A stretch of DNA of 64,000 bases from Scolanthus callimorphus (taxonomy: Eukaryota; Cnidaria; Anthozoa; Actiniaria; Edwardsiidae): assembly GCA_033964015.1 (NCBI GenBank), contig CM066913.1, positions 23,769,854 to 23,833,853 on the forward strand, written 5' to 3'. This document shows positions 24,249 to 58,019 of the stretch, piece after piece. The position numbers and the translations under genes are program-made. Position 1 is the first letter of the stretch, and each line of letters opens with the position of its first letter. Below the pieces are notes generated by a model. The model saw only the letters and a list, made by a program, of their open reading frames with translations, was not told the origin of the DNA and did no database searches.

Positions 24249-25388
24249 ATGCATTTGCAAATGAAGACATGGTTAGTGAGCATCACCAGTCTACTGGCAT
24301 TTTTCAAGACTGTGGTCGAGTTGGTGAATCTTATGTGGAGAATCCATCCTGCTCTTACTTAAATGCTGAATGGCCAGAAGATGATGATTCAGCTGATGAC
24401 AGTCAAGATCAGGAAATTATTATGCAAGATGCAATTCTTAATGCAATTTTCAGGCACTTGAATGCCTTGACCAGATGAATGGCTCTTTGAAGAACTTCGA
24501 ATCATTGCTAACAATGGCTAGAGCAATGTACTGCAAAGGTGCAAAAATAGACCCTCATGATGAAAACATTATGAAGCAGTGGCCCAAAACATGGAATGAT
24601 GGAAAACAAATTCTAACAGATCTGGGTTACAAGGATGCATCAGAATACTTTATTTGCTTAGATGATAGCCATCCCTGCCATTGGGACATCTTACAAAACA
24701 AGAATGATTCCTGTAGACACTGTGGAAACAATCCAACCATTCCTTATTATTATTTTGGTTTAGAGGCAAAGGTGAGGCACTGGGTATCTGACAAGATGAT
24801 GTGTCATACCATAACAGCACATTGGAGAGAGAAGGAACACTGGTTGGGAAGGAACACAGGATGGCCTATAAAGAAAGAATTATGGGATGGAGAGAGATTT
24901 GCTGAACTATCTTGGTTTTTTGACAAGAAACTCTTTGGTGCTTGCCAACTAGATGCAAAACCCAAGGATGCAAGAATATATTCAGTGGAGAAACTATTGA
25001 ATTGCTTCCAGAAATGCCAAATGGTATGAAGAAGGTCATTTGTGAAATGTGCCACTCCTCTTCTGTGTTTCGGCCTGAGTACTGGTGATCCTAGAAACAT
25101 TGCATTTGTGGGTAAGGCCATTATAATAATAACAAGAGCCAATGTGGCTTTATGGCTGGCTTGTTTTATGTTAAGGGGAGTTTTTGTACGTTTTTGTGTG
25201 CCATATTCTTGTATGCATTCATACCTTTCAGAAACAACATTCTGACCTTATCTCGCGCTTCTGCTTTACGTTCTTCATGTATAATTTTAGTTATCAGAGT
25301 TTAAATATTTTATTGTTTATAAACTCTTGCAGGACGTTGGGATGGATTTCAGCCATTTGGGTCTAGCAGGAGAAGTTCAGGCAAGTTA

Positions 25389-25487
25389 CTGCCATTCTCA
25401 TTACACTGCGACCCTCGACCTTCAAAAGACCGACTTCAAAAACGTGTTCTACGGGACGTCAATCAAACCGTTACCATGACGATTTCA
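25389..25487 (+). repeat. Left terminal inverted repeat of the 8.8-kb element
   Basis: A 99-bp sequence repeated in reverse complement at 34099-34197 with two mismatches. Both copies end at ...CATGACGATTTCA, 140 bp before the accessory gene's ATG. Confidence 0.95.
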
Positions 25488-26853
25488 AAACTTTCCCGCT
25501 TGACTTCGACACGCTGTGGTCTCGCGTTTGCGCTGCGTTGCTATTTGTGTTCTCGCGACAGCTCTCTCGACTCTCCTAGCTTCTATATAGCTTTACTGTT
25601 TTCTCTCGGGCTGTTTTCGCTCAAGATGGACGACAATCAGTACGGAGATTCGCAAGAATACTCTGAAGTTGGCATTGAACTGCCAGACATCGATGAAACT
25701 CAAATTGTTGATGAGGTGAACGAACAGGTCAGTGTTACACTGGTCCATCATTGTCAGTTTCTTTGAACTTTTAGTTTTAGTCCATCCAAACCAATTTTGG
25801 TTAAATTCTAACTTACAATCTTCAGCGCGAGGTTGCCCTATTCACGAGAACAAAGAATGGAAAAGTTGTGGGCGCTGAAACCACTCCCTTTGTCTTGCCA
25901 AAGAGGTGAACTACCACACGCTGATAGCCTGTGTGGAAGATTATACGAGAAAAGTGACTGGGGAAGACGTAACTATTACTCAGCTGTACTACAAAAAGTC
26001 AAAATCCAAAGCTGTGGTGAAGATGGCAGGAGATACTGACATACTGGCACTACTAAAAGAGTACCCCTCGCGTATCAGAATGGCAAACGCCGCTCGGAAG
26101 TTACCATGTACTTGGCGGTAGACTTGAAGAAAGGCAAGTACTCGCCTACACCAGCCATTTTTGTCTTGTGAATCTGATAGTGTAATGACCCTGTAATTTA
26201 GCTTCTAAACTGAAAAACTTTCCATGTAAACTTATTTGGCCCATCAAACAATCTCTCTTTGTGTTGTTTTCTATTGTTGTAACCCATTTTTCCCTAATAC
26301 AGGCCTCTTTTCTTTTTACTCGCTGTGAATACATAGGGAAAGAGGCCGCTGCTATAGCAGGGAAAACAACTTTTCAACATTGCCCTTCTTGTCTGTTCTT
26401 GACCCACAGACTATACAATCCATTGTTACAATTCATGTTAAGAGATATTATTTTGTGATTGCTGTATCTTTTATTCTTTCATATATAGTTTTATCAAACC
26501 CAAGAAGATCACCTAGACTCGCCACTAACCGTGACACATTTGACATATATGTACACGAATTATCAGGAGACATGAAAGTTTCTAGTCAATCTGATGTACT
26601 TCACAAGGTGAATTATAACTCCTCTCTCCAAGACCTCATGGCACTGCTCAAGACCTATGAGGCAGAGAAAAAAGTTTATACACCTGCAAAGGGATTGTAT
26701 TGGATCAGGAAGGGGACAAAGCAAATAGTTAGTCTCAGGGGAACAGAAGATCTGGAGGCATGCAAAGGAAGTAAGAGCATACGCTTGGCATGCCAGGCAG
26801 TAAGCCTTGAAAAAGGTATGGAGAGAGGTGCAGGATTGAATTTATCACTATTG

Positions 26854-27037
26854 TGTTGTTCCAGAGAATATCCATCGTCCCATAGAAGGGTGGAATCCCC
26901 CCCCCCCCAACGTCTGGAATTTCCAAAGGAAAATACAGTATTCGTGTGGAAGAAATCAGGTAAATTGACACACCACCCCTCTGGAATTTCCAATCCCTTC
27001 CATGGGGGTATGGGGATGGATATTTTCTGCAACCACA
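26854..27037. mobile_element. TGTGGTTCC-type MITE, in intron of the accessory gene
   Basis: Ends TGTTGTTCCAGAGAATATCC and its counterpart ATATTTTCTGCAACCACA are inverted. The interior shares CTGGAATTTCCAATCCCTTC and ATACAGTATT blocks with copies at 32698-32842 and 45351-45545. It contains a C homopolymer (26898-26909). Confidence 0.75.
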
Positions 27038-28345
27038 CATTTCAATTAAATTATCAAAATGTTGTATGAAATGGCACATAATATCATGATATATCCCAAG
27101 TCTGATAAAGGGTTGATTTTTTGTAACCCTAGAATAAAAAATTGAGGAAGAATTTCTGTAAGGCCCATACGTGATGAAATATTTGTTTCTAGTATCTTAT
27201 TGGTCAAGAGTGTATCACATAACAAAACGAAATCTGACTGTTTCCCAGGCGAAAACTGGTAGGGTAACTGCATGGTTTTTTTTTCAAAGGCATGGGAACA
27301 AGAAAATTGGAAGTCATGTGACTGAAAATAAGATCAAACTGAAACCAAAATCCACCACATTTGCATAATATGCATAATATTAATAAAAAATATAACCTTC
27401 TTTATTACTGTTTTTTTTTTTTTCGTTTGCGTTGTTGTTCTTTTTGGCATGATATGATAATAAAGCACTGAAACCCCATGGAAGCATGTTTTGCTGATAA
27501 TTTCCAGAAGCTTGGCTGAGGGAAACATCATTGGTCTTGGGACCACAAAACATACCGTTTTACTAAAAATAAATAAATGTTAGCATCTAATTTTGTTCTG
27601 CTTAGGCCACCAGAGTGACAAATCATAATATTATCAGAGTACAATGAACCTCCCTCTAAATCTCTGAGGAATGCCAAGTTGCAATGGGCAAGCAAAGGTC
27701 AAAGACCACTGGATTGTTTCAAGGAGTAGTAATCCTTTTTCCTAGTTTTAAATTACTATTACTACGATTCACAGAAACCCCATGTACAAGCAGAAAAAGG
27801 CAGCTGTTCCCAAGCAAGACATCCGTTCGGAAAGATGATAACACCTTATGGAACGATACCCATGTGGAACTTGTAAGAGATCTTGGAAAGAGGGGAACCA
27901 TGTGGCGGTACAGCACAAAACATCTCAAACTCTGGACTGACCAAATAATAGAAGGCAACTCTGCTGGCATCAACGAGGAACCAGGGTGGGAGGACCACAT
28001 TGATTCAGTGGGAATACCCCCAAAAGTGAAGAGGTCTTCTACTGAAAACAAAGAAACTGCAGCTACCCCACCTATGTCTGGCGGTTCAATGCTTGAATTT
28101 ATGATGTGGCAGCAGCAGCAAAGGAATGACCAGGAGGCGAGGAGAAACGATATGTTTCAGGCAGCACTGCTGGCCTGCCTGTCAACAATCAGCCCCAATC
28201 CCAGAGCTCAGGCATGTACTGTTTATTATATTATACAACACTAGTAAAGCATGCACTCTGATTACCAAAATCTCATGTTTCGAACATAATGCATGTTGTT
28301 TGGGCTTTTCAATGTGAGAACAATCGTTTTTATTGTTATATAAAA

Positions 28346-28495
28346 CAAATAGATGTTATTTTTCCATGTGTCTTTTCTCTAATACATGCGCTTGTCTGCA
28401 TCTAGTAGCATACTGTTTTTGTTCAAAGGCACACTGTGATGTCCTGTATGCATATATTACAGGACAGGTGCATGGAAAAATAACATCTATTTCCT
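28346..28495. mobile_element. 150-bp foldback, AATAGATGTTATTTTTCCATG arms in an intron
   Basis: The block ATAGATGTTATTTTTCCATG near 28350 is repeated in reverse complement near 28475 (CATGGAAAAATAACATCTAT), enclosing ~100 bp. It lies between exons 27775-28211 and 28616-28664 of the accessory gene. Confidence 0.8.
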
Positions 28496-29450
28496 AAATA
28501 ACACAAGCTAAATATCGCTCTGAGAAACAAAAACCAGTATCATACTTCAAATTGCAATTGTGTTCCTTTATAGTATATTGCTTATTCATACATTCTCATT
28601 TCTACTTCCACACAGGAGAGACAGCAAGATCCAAGGTGTCAAGTGCAAGCTTCTACAGTAAAAGGCAAGTGATAGCAAGTCACCCTTGCAAATACAGTAT
28701 GCATCACCACTATATCATCTCAGTGATCTGATAGGTTGGGACAAAAATGTGTTGTACAACCAGAGGGTTTCTGACCACCAATGCAATAATTGCATGTTTT
28801 GCAATTGTGACAGCTAGCCAATAAGAAGGCTTGGATAAAGATCATGTTTTATTGACCTTGAAGGACACTGGTTTTTGCCCCTGTCATCCCTTTCATTTTC
28901 CTTTCACTCTGAGGACAGAGTGAAAGCTGTGAGTTTGCCAACATGAGCAATATAGCTGATTTTAATTATTTATTCCAGCTCTTGGCCAGATGACACCAGC
29001 TGACTGCCTTGCCATACTTCATTCCATTGGGCTATCAAAGTACAGCAGCGCCTTTACAGACAACTTGGTGGATGGTCCAATGTTAGATGCATTTTTGCAT
29101 CCCCAAATTGGACAGGCACTCATGACATCAATTGGGATATCAGATGAAGACTGTCTGACATTAGTACCAGAGATATATCGATTGAAGGCTAGGGGCTTTA
29201 CTAAAACCCACACTACAACAACTGTCTAAGTACAACTGAACTATTTCATTCATGTTCTTATAGCCCAATGTAAGGGAATCCAGCTATAGGTATATGGAAT
29301 CCGGTCTGCATTCCATAATCCAATCATTTCTCTTTTACTGGAATCTAGAAGCCAAGACAGGTGGAATCCGGAATCCAGGGGGGTTGAAACTAGAATCCAG
29401 GGGCCAAAATCCAAATAAGCTCATTGTATTCCCTCACATGTACATAGGGC

Positions 29451-29627
29451 AATAGTCATTTTCACAATTCCTCGCTCTATTGTGATTCAAATTGGAATTC
29501 TAGCCTGAAGTCGAGTCTACCATTGACCAAACGATACATTGATTGACATTGATCAACGTTGACTCGACTTCAGGCTAGAATTCCAATTTGAATCACAGTA
29601 AAGCAAGGAACTGCGAAAAGGACTATT
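29451..29627. mobile_element. 177-bp near-perfect foldback MITE
   Basis: 67-bp arms at 29451-29517 and 29561-29627 are inverted copies with a handful of mismatches (shared core GACTCGACTTCAGGCTAGAA). The loop is ~43 bp. It lies just beyond the accessory gene's stop codon. Upstream at 29295-29400 are short GGAATCC/GAATCCAG repeats. Confidence 0.9.
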
Positions 29628-29653
29628 ATTAACTACGGCATAGCAACTGGACA

Positions 29654-30812
29654 ACTGGTATGGTAAAATATTTAGCACTTATTCTATTTCAATTGAGGTG
29701 GATAGTGGCAGAATATTTACCGAGAGCCGCAGGCTCGAGGTAAATATTCCTAAAGCCACTATCCACCGAAATTGAAATAGAATAAGTGTTTTTGTATATA
29801 CCAGCAAGGCAACCTGCCGAATTTTCAGTCGGAAAACAATAAGAAAAGTTGTGTTAGCGTTTTAAAACTGCGTGCGTGACAAAACTCACGCAAACTTTAT
29901 AGGTGATTTGCATAAGCACGTTTTTGGCCGATTTTGACAGCTCTAGAAAGTTTGCAAGCATTTACTTCGAAAAGCTGCGGAAAAAAGTGGACAATTCAAG
30001 GATTTTCAGCAAATTTGGACATGTAGCGAGCAATATATTGCATCATTTCAATTCAAGAAGGAATATAGCTGCAAATTGGAGAGCATTTTAAGCAATTCGC
30101 CAAAAGTTTCCGAGATGAAAATTATTTGTCGGCAGCCACTCGTTGCACAAGTAATTATTTTAGTTTGCTGGAAAAATGGAGTGAGCAAACACCCTAAACA
30201 CTGGATATTTGAGGGAAAACGATTTAGCAGGATAAAACAACTACACGAAACCTTATGAAAAGGCTTTATGGGGTTATCATCAGGCAAGAAGAAGGATAAC
30301 TAACTACTAACAAAAGTCTCCTTTGTGGCGGACAATTCGCTCGCAAAAAAACTACAAGAAAGCTGCCGATCAGTCGTTGCAAGACACAAACCATCCTCAG
30401 GTACTTTGAAAATTAGCTCTTTCGACTGTATTTTCTCGACATATTGTAGATTATAATTTTGATTTTTGTCAAATAAATAAAATAAAGGGAAAGTACATGC
30501 CGAAAAAGAATTTTCATTCATGCTTTGCCAGCTAAAGTTTTTCAACTCGGGTTTCACAGTGCAAGCGTGTTTTTCACAAACAATGCTCAGACGATTTGTG
30601 AGACATATTAAATCCAGAGAGACCGATTTTGAGACAAAGAAATCTAATTTGTTGCTTCTTTAGTTTTGTTGACTGACATTTCTTCGCCTGTACATGAAAT
30701 TTGCTTGCCAACACAATATCTACTGTTTCGGAGGTAAATAATGTCTCAGATTCCGAGACTCTAAACCAATCAAATTGGTCGTTCTTAGGAGGTTGCCGAG
30801 CTGGTATATACT
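29654..30812. mobile_element. Element with palindromic left end (29654-29803) and TATATACCAG-type termini
   Basis: Bases 29675-29708 and 29755-29790 form long arms (GAGGTGGATAGTGGC / GCCACTATCCACC core) around a second hairpin (GAATATTTACC / GGTAAATATTC). Next to it, TATATACCAGCAAGGCAACCT at about 29795 pairs with AGGTTGCCGAGCTGGTATAT ending near 30810. The ~1-kb unit between has no clear coding exon. Confidence 0.6.
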
Positions 30813-31301
30813 AAATTATATTATACCTGTACCTTGACAATAATATGTTAGCCCTTGACACTATATTATTTCATGCACTGCAACTAAAAAAATACCAAAA
30901 CTAAATTGCTCTCCCAAAAATTGAAAACAGACAAAAAATTTATCCTCATGTATATTTTCCCTCCAAAAATGTATCAGATGCTCCTGACGATACAGTACTT
31001 CTGAGTATCCAATCTCAGCATTTATGGGGACAGGGGAATCTAAAAATGTTATCATGTTAATCAGCATTCCCATTTAGGGCACACAGGCAAATGAATGCTA
31101 ATGTTCAACGTTGTTGTTGGCATCACGCCACCATCTTAGATGTACCCACTATCTAGGAAAAAGTATTTGCAGACATGGTCAGAAACTCCTGAAATAAAGA
31201 CAAAATCAATGTTAGGGAGCTGGCAATCATTTTTTGACAATTAAGGATGTATACAAGGTAATTATAAGGAATATTTTTTTAATTATAAGGAATAATTTTT
31301 C

Positions 31302-31402
31302 CAAGAGGGCACAGTAACAAATTCTGCATTCTGATTGGTTGTCAGAGCGTGCGAACAGGGGCAATATTTTACTATCTCTGACCTAGGTCACGGTAACCAT
31401 TT
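31302..31402. repeat. Dispersed ~100-bp module, copy 1 (partner 57767-57865)
   Basis: The sequence TTCTGCATTCTGATTGGTT, then GGGGCAATATTTT, then CTATCTCTGACCTAGGTCAC, then GGTAACCATTT is shared in order and orientation with 57767-57865. Confidence 0.85.
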
Positions 31403-31892
31403 GCCATTTCCCAGCCGGTAATAACATATATTTCCACAATACTGTGAGACTTGCACATACACTGAGAAAAGCGTTTGTGAGGGTATCTATCAGCTATATC
31501 TCTGTACATAACCATTTCTTTGCTGCACCAAAATATCCCTCAATGGGATTCAAATCTGGACACAATATCCTTCCACTGCAGTGTCTGAAAAGTGGGGAGC
31601 TGTGGGTTTGAGACTGCTACCTTCATTATGCCAAACAAAAAATCAAAATCCTTTTGTACCACAGAAATTCCAAATGTACCTTGTAGGATGAACTGATTTG
31701 CATCCGTATGCTTTACATGTAACCACAGTCTTCAATCAAGGAAGTGCATGCGTCAGGGGAAATCTCAAAAACACAAGGTAACTCTCTCAGGGGTATTTTC
31801 ATATATGATTTAAGAAAATGTGGGAGAGGGTGTGGTTGGTTATGACGGCCAGGCGGGGGTAAGTATTTTGCAAACCCCCATCTTACTAATGA

Positions 31893-31924
31893 GCCCCCCC
31901 CCCCCCCCCACACACACACACACA
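31893..31924. repeat. C homopolymer followed by (CA)n
   Basis: A run of about 17 C residues passes directly into seven to eight CA repeats, inside the transposase gene region. Confidence 0.9.
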
Positions 31925-32697
31925 CTTGAAAACCGTTCCGCCGTCCTTGCAAAACCATTGATAGAATAGTAGATGGTGCCCACAAAACAAGTTATTGTTG
32001 GTTCTGTAAGTCTCTAAAATTGTCTTATTACTTACTACTGTATTTTCACTCGAATCTAAAAAATGACAGGAAAATGCCACATGGTTGGAACAGATGATAG
32101 TATTAGACTAAACTATGACATAATGTACAGCTTGTAATATGGCCTGCAATGCATTCTAGTAACCTATCTGAGTTACTCTTGGTGTCTCATCATCCATCTC
32201 TTGGCAACACTGAAGCACTCTTCAATAGGGTTCATGTCTGGTGAGTAAGGTCTATAAACAGAGGTTCACAGTTATAGACTGAGTAGTATTCTTACCAACA
32301 CAAAAACAATTGATAAAATGATGTTTTACTTTATTTTACAGACATAAAAATGAAAAATACTGTAAAACATTTATAGGAGTGGTAAAATTTACAAGGGTGT
32401 GTTTATATGATCAACAATCAACATGCCCTCCTTGTTTGCAATGGAGGACTCGAGTTATTTTAAAACTCCAAAAATATGTACATGTATATAGCAGATTTCA
32501 GATGACCGTCATGATTTAATTCAATTTGCGATTGGTTTGCTTTCATTGGCTGGTCATTCCTATGAACCAATCAAATTGCAAACTAATTACAAGCAAAGAT
32601 TTTTACTAGCCAATCAAATTCAATAAGATTGTGTAATCCTGAATTGGTTTGCCAATTGGACGGGCTGGAAACCATTCAACATCAAGTTGTAATTACA

Positions 32698-32842
32698 CTG
32701 TTTCTGATATCCATCCACCCCCAAGAAGGGATTGGAAATTCCAGAGGGGTGGGGGTGAATTTACCTGATTTCTTCCATACAAATACTGAGGAAGTTTTCA
32801 ACAATGTGGGGGAGGGCAAATCAGTATTTTCTGGAACCACAC
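32698..32842. mobile_element. TGTGGTTCC-type MITE, in intron of the transposase gene
   Basis: Shares GAAGGGATTGGAAATTCCAG, ATACAAATACTG and the end TTTCTGGAACCACACA with the copy at 45351-45545; the left end is eroded. It lies between transposase exons c and d. Confidence 0.7.
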
Positions 32843-34098
32843 ATTCTTGGGAAAATGTTAGATGTGGTTGAGGTTCATGTTGCTCGTGAATAATATAAGC
32901 ATTGTATGTTTGCATATACTTACGGCAGGAAAACAAGCAGGGCACCTTTTGATCTGATCATTCTCAATGCTTCAGGGGATTGGTGGATACGGCAGTTATC
33001 AAGCACAACTATGGAGCAATCCTCACCATGTGCATAAGAACCAAGATGTGGTAGTATGTAGTTTTCCACAACAAATTCAAATTGTTCTTTGTCATATGAA
33101 CCCACAATTGCATGGGCAGCCTTTATCCCCTGAATTGACACTCCAGCAAGGACACTGTACCTTGTACCTCGGGTAAAATTGCCAACTTTTGAGATCCGGG
33201 TGCCACGAAGGCTACGAGCATACTTGCGCTGATAAAAATACTTGTATCCCTCTGAAGGGATACTTGTATCCGTCTTGTGGTGGCTACATTCTGGTGTCAG
33301 GAAATGTAAATCATCTATTGAAAATTTTGCATCACCCCACCACCCCTCCTAGAAAAGAAATAACCTAAGCTAAGATAAGGGCAAGGAGGCAGAGGAGGGG
33401 AGGGACTCCCACACATTAGGTGGTATTGGTTCCATTTATAAAGGGTGGTCATTTCTGACAACTTTTCCGATCATGGCATGGTATTTTACCTGAGTTGTTC
33501 TTTCATCTTTGGACGACTCATCCAGGAAAATAAACTGCTCCTTTCTAAAGGCTGACACAAATCGTCTAAACTGTGCTCGCTGTACCTCGTTTCTTTCGCG
33601 AGCAATGACTTGCAGCTGCAAAAATAGAATCCATCTTGAGCGGTTTCAGTAAATGTAAGCCTGCGAGAAAAACTGTAATAGACAAAGAGTAAAGTCAAGA
33701 CAACACAAAAGATAATTTGGCGAATGAGAAGATTTTCATTTGCTAGAACGAAACACCAGAATTAGGGATCGCTTGTCCAAGTATAAGAACCATTGTTTGG
33801 CTTACGGAGGTAATCAATATCTGATGGAAATATTCTGGTCTTACCGGTAATGCATCGTTGTCTCCCCTTTCTCCGCGGCTGATCGACCACATCTAAAGTG
33901 TTCCTGTACAATCTAGTGATCTTTTTCACAAAACTTCGACTCACATGTAGTAACTGCCATATCTCTGAATAACTATAATCGACTGTTTTAAGATAAACAA
34001 CTCGCCATCTCAGCGTCAGATGATAAGCTCTTGGCATTTTCGTTTCGATTCGTTGTTGTCCAAGATGGCGGTGGAACACGCTCCCAAGTGCCGATAAG

Positions 34099-34197
34099 TG
34101 AAATCGTCATGGTAACGGTTTGATTGACGTCCCATAGAACACGTTTTTGAAGTCGGTCCTTTGAAGGTCGAGGGTCGCAGTGTAATGAGAATGGCAG
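34099..34197 (-). repeat. Right terminal inverted repeat of the 8.8-kb element
   Basis: Reverse-complement partner of 25389-25487. It lies 61 bp upstream of the first candidate transposase ATG (34037), so the TIRs sit directly in front of both divergent genes and probably contain or abut their promoters. Confidence 0.95.
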
Positions 34198-34437
34198 TAA
34201 AATCAGCTATTTATGACAATAAGAGACTTATTTTCTTACTAATTCCATTCTGATCTGAAATTATGCAAGCACGCCTTTTTACCAATTCCATCAAAGGTGT
34301 TCAAACAGTCACTTAATTAAAAAAAGCTGATTTGGTGGCCTGAGCGTGTGAGCTACAGTATTAATATTGATTTTTTTGTACTATTCTCCCAGATTATTAT
34401 ATTTGTGGTACGTTAAGAATATTATTTCCTATTTATT

Positions 34438-45130: not shown

Positions 45131-45350
45131 GGATTGTGAAATTGCATTTTTGATTTCTTACTGAGGCCAAACAGTTTTAAAGACTTGGAAATTTGATAGC
45201 AAATTCTATTAAATCGTATGTAAGAATGCCTATACCCTATAATGCAAGTTTCAGTTCCTTTTTCATTCTAAGACTAATAGGATAGGATTCTAAGTATAAA
45301 TAGGGTTCAGAGTTATTTAATGTAGACACTGGTCTTATTTTATAACATTG

Positions 45351-45545
45351 TGTGGTTCCAGAAATTATCCATACCCCCTACGGAAGGGATTGGAAATTCT
45401 GGAGGGGTGGGGAAGGGGTTTGGGTCAATTTACCTGATCTTTTCCATACAAATACTGTATTTTTCTTTGGAAATTCCAGAGGGATGGAGGGGTCACTTTT
45501 CAACACCCTTCCGTGGAAGGGGTATGGAATTTTTTGGAACCACAC
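45351..45545. mobile_element. 195-bp MITE, TGTGGTTCCAG ends (best copy)
   Basis: TGTGGTTCCAGAAATTATCC at 45351 is mirrored by GGAATTTTTTGGAACCACA ending at 45545. Internal GGAAATTCTGGAGGGG and GGAAATTCCAGAGGGATGG blocks also appear in the copies at 26854-27037 and 32698-32842. Confidence 0.85.
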
Positions 45546-45774
45546 ATTTTGTTAAAACAACCGTAGGTTCGGGGCATAATAAAACCTGCTCTATGATTTG
45601 GCACAAACCGACTTGGCTTTCTTTTGTTTTTGTTTTTTTCTGATAGCTTCTGCTATCAGATGGTTCAAATCTTATTAAAGTGAAAGAGGACAAAAGTGCA
45701 CGGTTTGAGGTGAATTCCGTCTGAGAATGAATTTCTTACCTGTGGATTTTCACAGGGAAAATGGTAGGAACATT

Positions 45775-56430: not shown

Positions 56431-57766
56431 GTCTTTCCACCCCAGTTGGGTGTAGATTTATTGAGATATTTCACAGTTGAATTGTTATCTGTCTACACTC
56501 CATCTCCTGCTATTTGATAGTCAAACTAATTTGAGAATACAGTTTTTTCAATAAAGTTAGTCACGTGAAGTAAAAAAGTACCAAGCTAGTGTCACATACA
56601 CGTGTGGACCCTCAGCTTCAACAAGGTTTTTATTTTCTGGAATATCGAACTGCTGCGTCATTCTCTGTACCTAGCTTTTGTAATGCGCTTTTTAAACAAA
56701 AATAAAGTTCATAACGCTACTCAAATTATATTGGCCATAATACCGTGAAAGCTTTGTGTCTTTTTTCTTTCTGTGTGACTAACTTTATAATAAGTTTTTA
56801 CAGAAAACGTATCCTAAAAGCATTCGAGCAACGTCCTAAAAGTCCCAAAAAAATGGGAGAACAGGTTCATATTCGTGATATTTTGTTGAACTATTTTCGA
56901 CGATATCCACGCGAAAGATATTACCATAGTATTACTCAAGCGACTTGACGCTAAGCAATAATTTTATATGCACACTGAATTTCCGATAGCTGGTTTTCTA
57001 AACACTATAAGTATTAGCTTTTTTAAATATATGTCAGACATCTCTTTCTTGCTAACTGTATTGAACAGTATACAGTTTTACTTAAACTCATCGTTTTTTC
57101 GTCACGAGACTCCATACTTTTGAAGTACATTTGAGTCTCTGAATAAATTAACTATAGAATGTCGTCAGTTTGAAATGTTCCCCCAGGGCATGAAGGTGGA
57201 CATGAAAGAATGTTCTTCTACAAGTATTCTGCAAGTGCCGGCAAAAAGTAACTCTTGCAATTACTTTTAGGTTAAATCGTAGATTGACTATACTGAAAGC
57301 TGCGTAGAGTTGTAGAAAAACGTTTTTGTCACCCTGTGAAGTCTTTGTATCTTCGCAAATTCAAGAGATGTAACAGGTTTTTATGATGAACATGATAAAG
57401 AAGCAAGAAACTCCTGTATGATTTCAATAAACCTGATGCTGGCAAACACATCATTGACAAAATTGTTTTAACTTAAATAAAAGGCTTTAGTAATGAGAGG
57501 ATGTATGGGCGTAATTGTATTCTATAATTGCTCCATGGCGTCTGTAAATAAGTTTACCGAGGGTTTCTCGTTCTTCGACAAAATAAGCTTTTAAAAAAGT
57601 AATCTATGCGTTTCTAAAAGAAAGCGAGTGCCTTCGGGTTCTATCAAAGGGGTATTCGTTTTAGTTCGGGTTTTTTCGGGGGGGGGGGGGGCGGATAGTG
57701 ATTGCTTGGTGAACAGCGTGCAATCAACATTTATTTTTCAATACATACTATGTTTTATTTTTTACC
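56431..57766. other. No gene seen
   Basis: AT-rich, with only short frames. A G homopolymer is at 57679-57691. Confidence 0.4.
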
Positions 57767-57865
57767 TCGAGGGCACGGTAACGAATCCTGCATTCTGATT
57801 GGTTCTGAGAGCGCGCGCGCGGGGGCAATATTTTCCTATCTCTGACCTAGGTCACGGTAACCATT
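57767..57865. repeat. Dispersed ~100-bp module, copy 2
   Basis: Same block order as 31302-31402 (TGCATTCTGATTGGTT, GGGGCAATATTTT, CTGACCTAGGTCACGGTAAC), with GCGCGCGCGCG where the other copy has GCGTGCGAAC. The minisatellite starts ~155 bp further on. Confidence 0.85.
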
Positions 57866-58019
57866 TTCGCGCGCTTGTTTTCATCGAAAAAATTAAATTT
57901 TTGAGTTGGAAAAAAATAAATAGGTTATTTACCGGCTTTAGGTCGGTCCGTATAGGAGAAAAACTGTGACCTCGGCCTGGAAAATGTTGACCTCGGCCTC
58001 CGCCTGGCCACGCCTGCGC

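Follow-up and report, generated by a model that had tools for sequence, protein, structure and literature searches.

In this study, we analysed a 64,000-nucleotide stretch of the Scolanthus callimorphus genome, referred to here as the window (C3:23769854-23833853 of a 597-Mb assembly in 302 contigs), and we show that the 8.8-kb transposon at positions 25389-34197 of the window belongs to a genuine lineage of animal IS630/Tc1-mariner elements with two genes, in which a spliced transposase gene and a multi-exon accessory gene converge from opposite strands. Tc1/mariner elements serve as the textbook example of DNA transposons that are self-sufficient, with one gene, one enzyme and no cofactor. 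When loci were sorted by the sequence of one exon from each gene (A6 of the accessory gene and T4 of the transposase gene; Table 1), ten families and a deep lineage were distinguished. The two-gene architecture is present in the four families that were read and, clean ends aside, in the deep lineage, and the pairing is seen by exon position in the six other families, which are known from exon positions and sequences alone. The initial annotation of this DNA had read the element as a two-gene, intron-containing member of unusual architecture, perhaps of an undescribed lineage, and this reading is now supported by three divergent families and the deep lineage, all of which carry the same pair between inverted repeats. 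That the second gene has been kept through such deep divergence suggests that the one-gene rule for Tc1/mariner elements is not universal in animals, and the persistence of the pair across about eleven divergent families points to a second protein that aids the element's movement or survival.

The ends of the element had been annotated as 99-bp terminal inverted repeats (TIRs), identical at 97 of 99 positions and with TA on both outer sides, and this was borne out by the sequence and by the flanks of other insertion sites. The arms agree at 100 of 102 positions when the adjoining TTA/TAA is included, and the first 26 bases of the TIR occur exactly twice in the window, where shuffled sequences lead one to expect no occurrence. 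A TTA...TAA context was found at all seven full-length insertions read, namely the window copy c1 and copy c3 counted once, copies c2, c4 and c5, and one insertion in each of three other families. Beyond TTA/TAA, the flanks of the window element differ from those at three further insertions in its family, which indicates that the boundaries of the window element are right. A 3-bp or outer target duplication was also considered and was rejected, since the flanks support TA only. Short or partial copies have TTA, CTA or ATA beside recognisable ends, and some of their arms are too diverged for the end to be placed. Thus, two of the hallmarks of IS630-Tc1/mariner elements, a TA target site and TIRs enclosing a transposase, are present. 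The annotated length of 8.8 kb is probably inflated, because the interior holds palindromic and dispersed repeats (29451-29627, 29676-29788, 26852-27039, 32707-32788 and 31296-31402). Some of the interior repeats recur elsewhere in the window, at 45349-45546 and 57760-57866.

The left 212 bases of the element gave at least 48 matches in the genome, a lower bound since 40 of 60 candidates were scored. Five full-length copies bounded by TIRs were found (8809, 7910, 8953, 10778 and 13308 bp), all with exons of both genes, and a genome search with exon T4 returned five matches at 99-100% identity, in agreement with this number. Copies c1 and c3 (C3:24.29 Mb) have the same flanks, and the five copies therefore represent four insertion sites. 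The window insertion with its flanks thus stands twice on C3, at about 23.80 and 24.29 Mb and approximately 490 kb apart, which reflects either a segmental duplication or a haplotype left unpurged from the assembly; a 149-bp deletion in the transposase gene and other indels distinguish the two. Ten further sites hold short copies with both ends paired (about 0.2-1.2 kb), which resemble miniature inverted-repeat transposable elements (MITEs), and other matches retain one end only. Within this one genome, the proposal that the accessory gene always lies between paired TIRs therefore holds for the full-length copies (5/5), and the copies that lack it are short and MITE-like or truncated at one end. 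In the transposase region, positions outside the listed exons differ between copies at 6-17 of about 2100 sites, from which it follows that the window family moved recently.

In its conserved form the transposase has 317 amino acids encoded by six exons with five introns, a DD34E catalytic motif and two N-terminal helix-turn-helix parts. The joined transposase exons of the window match Pfam DDE_3 with E=3.4e-26, which confirms the annotated spliced DD34E transposase as regards its family; however, the window copy lacks most of T2 and part of T5. The D-E spacing was computed as 34 in families F2 and F3 and is 34 in 35 of the 41 relatives listed (32, 33, 35 or 51 in the others). Both further hallmarks of IS630-Tc1/mariner transposases are thus seen, the DDE triad and, by hits below the Pfam cut-off, the two N-terminal helix-turn-helix motifs (HTH_23 with E=0.0037 and 0.00089, and HTH_Tnp_Tc3_2 with E=0.031 for T2). 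The NCBIfam IS630 model recognises the anthozoan relatives P0003 and P0004 at E values of about 1e-39, and the window T4 exon alone falls below its cut-off; a sequence search of the PDB with the transposase gave nothing firm (Sleeping Beauty, E=0.22). The reading frame is open over 317 amino acids to the terminal stop in copy c5, in F2 (locus L052) and in F3 (L053). As for the other spliced frames of the window family, that of c4 is interrupted by one early stop, that of c2 is shifted in T1, and that of c3 is affected by the 55-bp deletion that truncates T5 in both c1 and c3; the 149-bp deletion is specific to the window copy, T2 being present in c2 to c5. The window copy is hence a recent but defective, non-autonomous insertion which, without a full transposase of its own, would depend on the products of other copies. 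T5 and T6 stand twice in tandem (31137-32251) in all five copies, with the downstream set decayed, and this second set may be a remnant or may provide an alternative C-terminus.

The annotation of a multi-exon gene on the other strand was also upheld, with one correction. The plus-strand accessory gene consists of six exons with matching phases at all junctions, and exons 3-6 form one open frame; A2, however, contains two frame breaks in the window copy, the first of which is common to c3 and the second not. From its N-terminus, the encoded protein reads as a conserved motif, a tentative PB1-like domain, a second PB1-like domain, a conserved block and, at the C-terminus, a SAM domain. Of these, the SAM domain had been named from the start, and the PB1-like part had been overlooked. 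Scanned against Pfam, four of nine pieces score above the SAM cut-off (L066 with E=5.9e-7, L068, L058 and L095 with E=3.8e-13), and the window, L052, L053, L054 and L071 score below it; the assignment of the C-terminus is thus made firm by the relatives, above all by L095, where the predicted domain is unmistakable. The domain in A3 is probably PB1-like. This is suggested by a model of its homologue P0001, predicted from six sequences, with ten-residue mean predicted local distance difference test (pLDDT) values of 58-82 over residues 171-260; in a Foldseek search with this model, PB1 domains or complexes (p62, NBR1 and others) made up 12 of the top 13 hits, at a probability of 0.95-1.00. A single-sequence fold of P0002 was discarded (mean pLDDT 42.4). 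The domain in A2 is tentatively called PB1-like from the predicted order of strands and helices. Pfam scans of the window and of relatives' pieces gave no convincing family match for the A4 block and, among the accessory pieces scanned, no catalytic or chromatin-reader domain; a PDB sequence search returned nothing for the accessory profile A1 and only the SARM1 SAM domain for A6, at a non-firm E of 0.93. Three of the five accessory introns have GC instead of GT donors (window positions 26134, 28212 and 28665), and the same is seen in all five aligned copies; splice donors of three other families, read by eye, looked like GT.

Table 1. Features of the two-gene element, with positions in the window
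Feature	Position	Strand	Basis
TA, left target-site duplication, in TTA context	25387..25388	.	sequence
Left TIR, 99 bp	25389..25487	+	sequence; 212-bp left end matched in genome
A1: start codon and conserved LPDIDETQ motif	25626..25727	+	motif in P0124; weaker matches in L052 and L054
A2: first, tentative PB1-like domain; two frame breaks; GC splice donor	25826..26133	+	matches P0001 and P0124
A3: second PB1-like domain	26489..26815	+	homologue P0001 by Pfam PB1 (below cut-off) and Foldseek
A4: conserved block (LWN..H..LVRDL...KHLKLWTDQII); GC splice donor	27775..28211	+	homologues in Actinostola P0002, P0123, L052-L054 and L095
A5: short linker; GC splice donor	28616..28664	+	phase-consistent; intact in 4/5 copies, split in c4
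A6: SAM domain and stop codon	28979..29229	+	weak Pfam SAM here, strong in some relatives; 33 genome matches
Decayed second copy of T5 and T6, in all five copies	31137..31565	-	
Transposase gene, exons T1 to T6	31713..34037	-	DDE_3 match; exon map by profile search
T6: ISPDACTSLIEDCGYM and stop codon	31713..31763	-	profile search
T5: catalytic Glu (PDMNPIEE); truncated by 55-bp deletion common to c3	32182..32251	-	
T4: second catalytic Asp (VLDNCRIH)	32924..33228	-	profile and genome search
T3: first catalytic Asp (FLDESSKD)	33490..33615	-	profile search
Intron remnant; 149-bp deletion near 33713 took most of T2 (second helix-turn-helix)	33616..33844	-	
T1: start codon, first helix-turn-helix	33845..34037	-	profile search
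Right TIR, 99 bp	34099..34197	-	sequence
TA, right target-site duplication	34198..34199	.	sequence

The pairing of the two genes extends far beyond the window family. A genome search with the SAM exon A6 gave 33 matches, which were merged to 30 loci, and at 25 of these a convergent T4 exon lies on the opposite strand within 15 kb, or at 27 when T2 or T5 is accepted; by our own arithmetic, about 0.02 paired SAM loci would be expected by chance. Of the three SAM loci without a transposase exon, the one at C3:24.45 Mb is a partial copy bearing a TIR of the window family, and those at C1:1814891 and C14:8338893 have PB1 exons within about 12 kb and no detected transposase. Starting from the transposase side, a convergent PB1 exon was found within 20 kb at 30 of 45 T4 loci. 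Loci L052 (F2), L053 (F3) and L054 (F4), at 50-61% identity in the SAM exon, repeat this plan between TIRs of their own (81-89 nt, 93-100% complementary), with A2, A3, A4 and A6 on one strand and T1 to T6 on the other, and A1 was seen in L052 and L054. In the deep lineage (L095/L096; C7:1779603), where T4 identity is 47%, an A2-like exon, a PB1-like exon, the A4 block and the SAM exon converge on the transposase, and an inverted repeat of 333 columns at 68% identity lies outside both genes. The partner had appeared to be absent from this lineage; at C7:1779603, the one locus where this was checked, the impression proved wrong and the partner is there.

These results bear on two explanations in which the pairing would be accidental. 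According to the first, the accessory gene is a host gene that was captured once by chance and is carried as cargo, which would fit its several introns, its domains typical of host proteins and the fact that every copy in the window family is broken. However, the gene is present in ten families and in the lineage of 47% identity, it is under purifying selection, and its exons do not behave as those of an ordinary host gene, a possibility kept in view since the first reading of this DNA: 27 of the 30 SAM loci are convergent to a transposase, one of the leftovers is a partial copy with a family TIR, and no host copy was recognised in the genome of the window. We therefore regard capture as very improbable. 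According to the second, two separate elements, or a composite, came to be nested by chance between one pair of TIRs. The order of matches at C17:1518824-1535605 and C2:35035259-35054113 does suggest two-gene elements nested within each other, and these two arrangements, which involve similar pairs, may go back to a single nesting event that was copied afterwards. Chance nesting is nevertheless already contradicted by the recurrence of one convergent order in the deep lineage and in families whose TIRs differ, and is the least probable of all the explanations considered here.

Comparisons between families indicate that the accessory gene is under purifying selection, a point that the initial annotation had proposed to check. 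Pairwise over four families, the proportions of non-synonymous and synonymous differences (pN and pS) were 0.24-0.39 and 0.56-0.95 for the accessory exons, and 0.13-0.37 and 0.61-1.04 for the transposase exons; in four comparisons with finite synonymous distance (dS), all in A6, the accessory ratio of non-synonymous to synonymous distance (dN/dS) was 0.07-0.29. A3 of F4 (an incomplete match) and T5 of the window family F1 (truncated) were left out, and A2 of F1 was taken from c5. These estimates apply between families, since the 6-17 differences found within the window family are too few. The distance matrices of A6 and T4 from ten families are correlated (r=0.59), a value reached in none of 5000 permutations; for C62 the T4 sequence was partial (66 amino acids), and C1_24.8 was given the T4 of its close relative C7_8.

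Long conservation and divergence correlated with the transposase would fit any role that serves the element, and two such roles have to be weighed beside a direct part in transposition. In one, the accessory protein protects the element, countering host silencing or recruiting or blocking chromatin or PIWI-interacting RNA factors via SAM and PB1, which in general are interaction domains of many kinds of complexes (PMC7051960). No specific pointer in this direction was found, including no catalytic or chromatin-reader domain by Pfam in the pieces scanned, and we consider protection rather unlikely, though it is the strongest of the competing explanations. In the other, the protein represses its own element or regulates its dose, oligomerising on the TIRs or on the transposase. 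Element-encoded regulators are known, for example the P-element repressor, and the same conservation evidence can be cited in favour; a purely self-limiting gene, however, should often be lost from copies that spread, and the accessory exons are kept in 5/5 full-length copies and in three other families, which makes a repressor improbable.

We hold with moderate confidence that the window element, which moved recently and is now defective, is a copy of a cut-and-paste IS630/Tc1-mariner-type transposon with two genes, in which an accessory oligomer aids transposition. Since the two genes begin immediately inside their respective TIRs, it is probable that each repeat provides a promoter. The accessory protein would then form an oligomer or short polymer through its PB1-like and SAM domains (PB1 and SAM domains both oligomerise head-to-tail; PMC7051960), and this oligomer would bind the transposase or the TIRs and help to pair the two distant ends. 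It could act by bridging ends that lie 8-13 kb apart, by concentrating the transposase or by guiding it, or the protein might otherwise support transposition in trans. The scaffold reading is suggested since PB1 and SAM domains typically self-associate and since the protein is conserved and diverges alongside the transposase, and it may plausibly take part in the assembly of the transposition complex, as the initial annotation had suggested. More tentatively, and with clearly less confidence, it is possible that these elements form an undescribed, ancient animal IS630/mariner lineage whose transposase depends on a PB1-PB1-SAM polymer bridging or coating the ends of a long element, which would make it the first animal Tc1/mariner-type system with a dedicated protein cofactor.

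Several observations weigh against the reading that we favour. None of the five window-family copies has an intact accessory gene; the indels that break it mostly differ between copies, one being common to c1 and c3, and in c5 the second half of A3 has also been replaced. Since one transposase is open and all five accessory copies are broken, the accessory gene looks less protected than the transposase in this young family, and this argues against an essential role in cis; a trans-acting product of other copies would explain it. At 15 of the 45 T4 loci no PB1 partner was detected, a number that falls to 13 after two corrections (C1:24538185 has a SAM partner, and at C7:1779603 the partner was found on reading), the remainder including decayed-looking copies and more distant lineages. 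The domain assignments are open to criticism as well: the SAM match of the window exon is weak, below the Pfam cut-off at E=0.0055, and Pfam PB1 was hit in just three of nine PB1-region pieces, in each case below the cut-off and in the second domain (E=0.0037 for P0001, 0.043 and 0.0032), with no hit for A3 of the window itself or for A2 in any piece scanned. The best Foldseek E value was 0.007, with none below 0.001, and the P0001 model has a mean pLDDT of 55.5. Most accessory dS values are saturated, and the A6 and T4 trees do not match in every branch. Concerning the ends, TCA replaces TA at one end of the short or partial copies L018 and L019, which have an identical flank, and no empty insertion site was found in the genome to prove the target duplication. 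Finally, the Actinostola matches to the two genes are on contigs that differ in length, so that linkage is seen in the genome of the window only.

Among known systems, PIF-Harbinger elements are comparable in that they encode a transposase and a non-catalytic Myb-like partner that is required for transposition; they belong to another superfamily and use a 3-bp target site. The likeness lies in a transposase accompanied by an element-encoded non-catalytic partner; here, however, the TTA/TAA flanks form no direct 3-bp repeat and no Pfam Myb domain was found in the accessory exons scanned. Bacterial IS630 insertion sequences are usually single-gene and without introns, in contrast to the two-gene, intron-containing element described here; the NCBIfam IS630 model matches its anthozoan transposase relatives. 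Most animal Tc1/mariner elements are 1.3-2.4 kb long with a lone gene (PMC7731502), and they share with the present elements the DD34E DDE_3 transposase, two N-terminal helix-turn-helix parts, TIRs and TA; the present elements differ in their length of 8-13 kb, their five transposase introns and their convergent second gene, found in 5/5 full copies and in F2-F4 where a classical member would have a lone transposase. The ciliate Tec/TBE elements are also multi-gene, of Tc1/mariner DD34E type and with one open reading frame (ORF) on the complementary strand, but they have TIRs of approximately 700 bp, the second ORF of Tec is a site-specific recombinase, and no PB1 or SAM is mentioned in the portion seen (PMC7325037); in F1-F4 the TIRs are 81-99 nt, and no recombinase domain was found among the exons scanned. 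The HvSm family of Hydra and Schmidtea comprises cnidarian DD34E elements with TA target-site duplications, described however, in the passage seen, as 1.7-2.8 kb long with TIRs of 15-56 bp and just a transposase (PMC7325037). Kolobok lineages have a DDD/E transposase and, in KolobokP, an accessory protein encoded on the opposite strand of the element, but they belong to another superfamily and the accessory proteins named are nucleases, a helicase or KolX rather than PB1-SAM proteins (PMC9587614). No mariner element with a SAM or PB1 partner was seen among the matches listed in a literature search of titles and abstract openings, outside of which lie Repbase and most subscription journals; a term search of PMC12730594 gave nothing that bears on this question, and neither 'introns' nor 'accessory' occurs in PMC7325037.

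In a set of 5.8 billion proteins, from which 7990 candidates were scored, the accessory protein has four relatives: one from Actinostola (P0002), the 33-member cluster P0123, P0001 and P0124. The closest named transposases, among the best 120 of 1054, are from the anthozoans Acropora, Exaiptasia, Porites, Actinia, Dendronephthya, Actinostola and Nematostella. Viral and prokaryotic collections contained no relatives of the accessory gene or of the TIR. SAM and probably PB1, both known as polymerising scaffolds, are hereby placed inside a DNA transposon, and this offers a natural system for investigating what a mariner transposase gains from a partner, be it the pairing of distant ends, a larger cargo or an escape from silencing. 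The open transposase frames in one copy of the window family and in two other families make this question directly testable.

Two further observations were made. Units of about 3735 bp are repeated in tandem at C12:7362915-7400620; approximately 11 of them were matched, each with a decayed A2. In the window, a 195-codon open frame without a Pfam match (24442-25029) lies immediately to the left of the element and is perhaps part of another mobile element.

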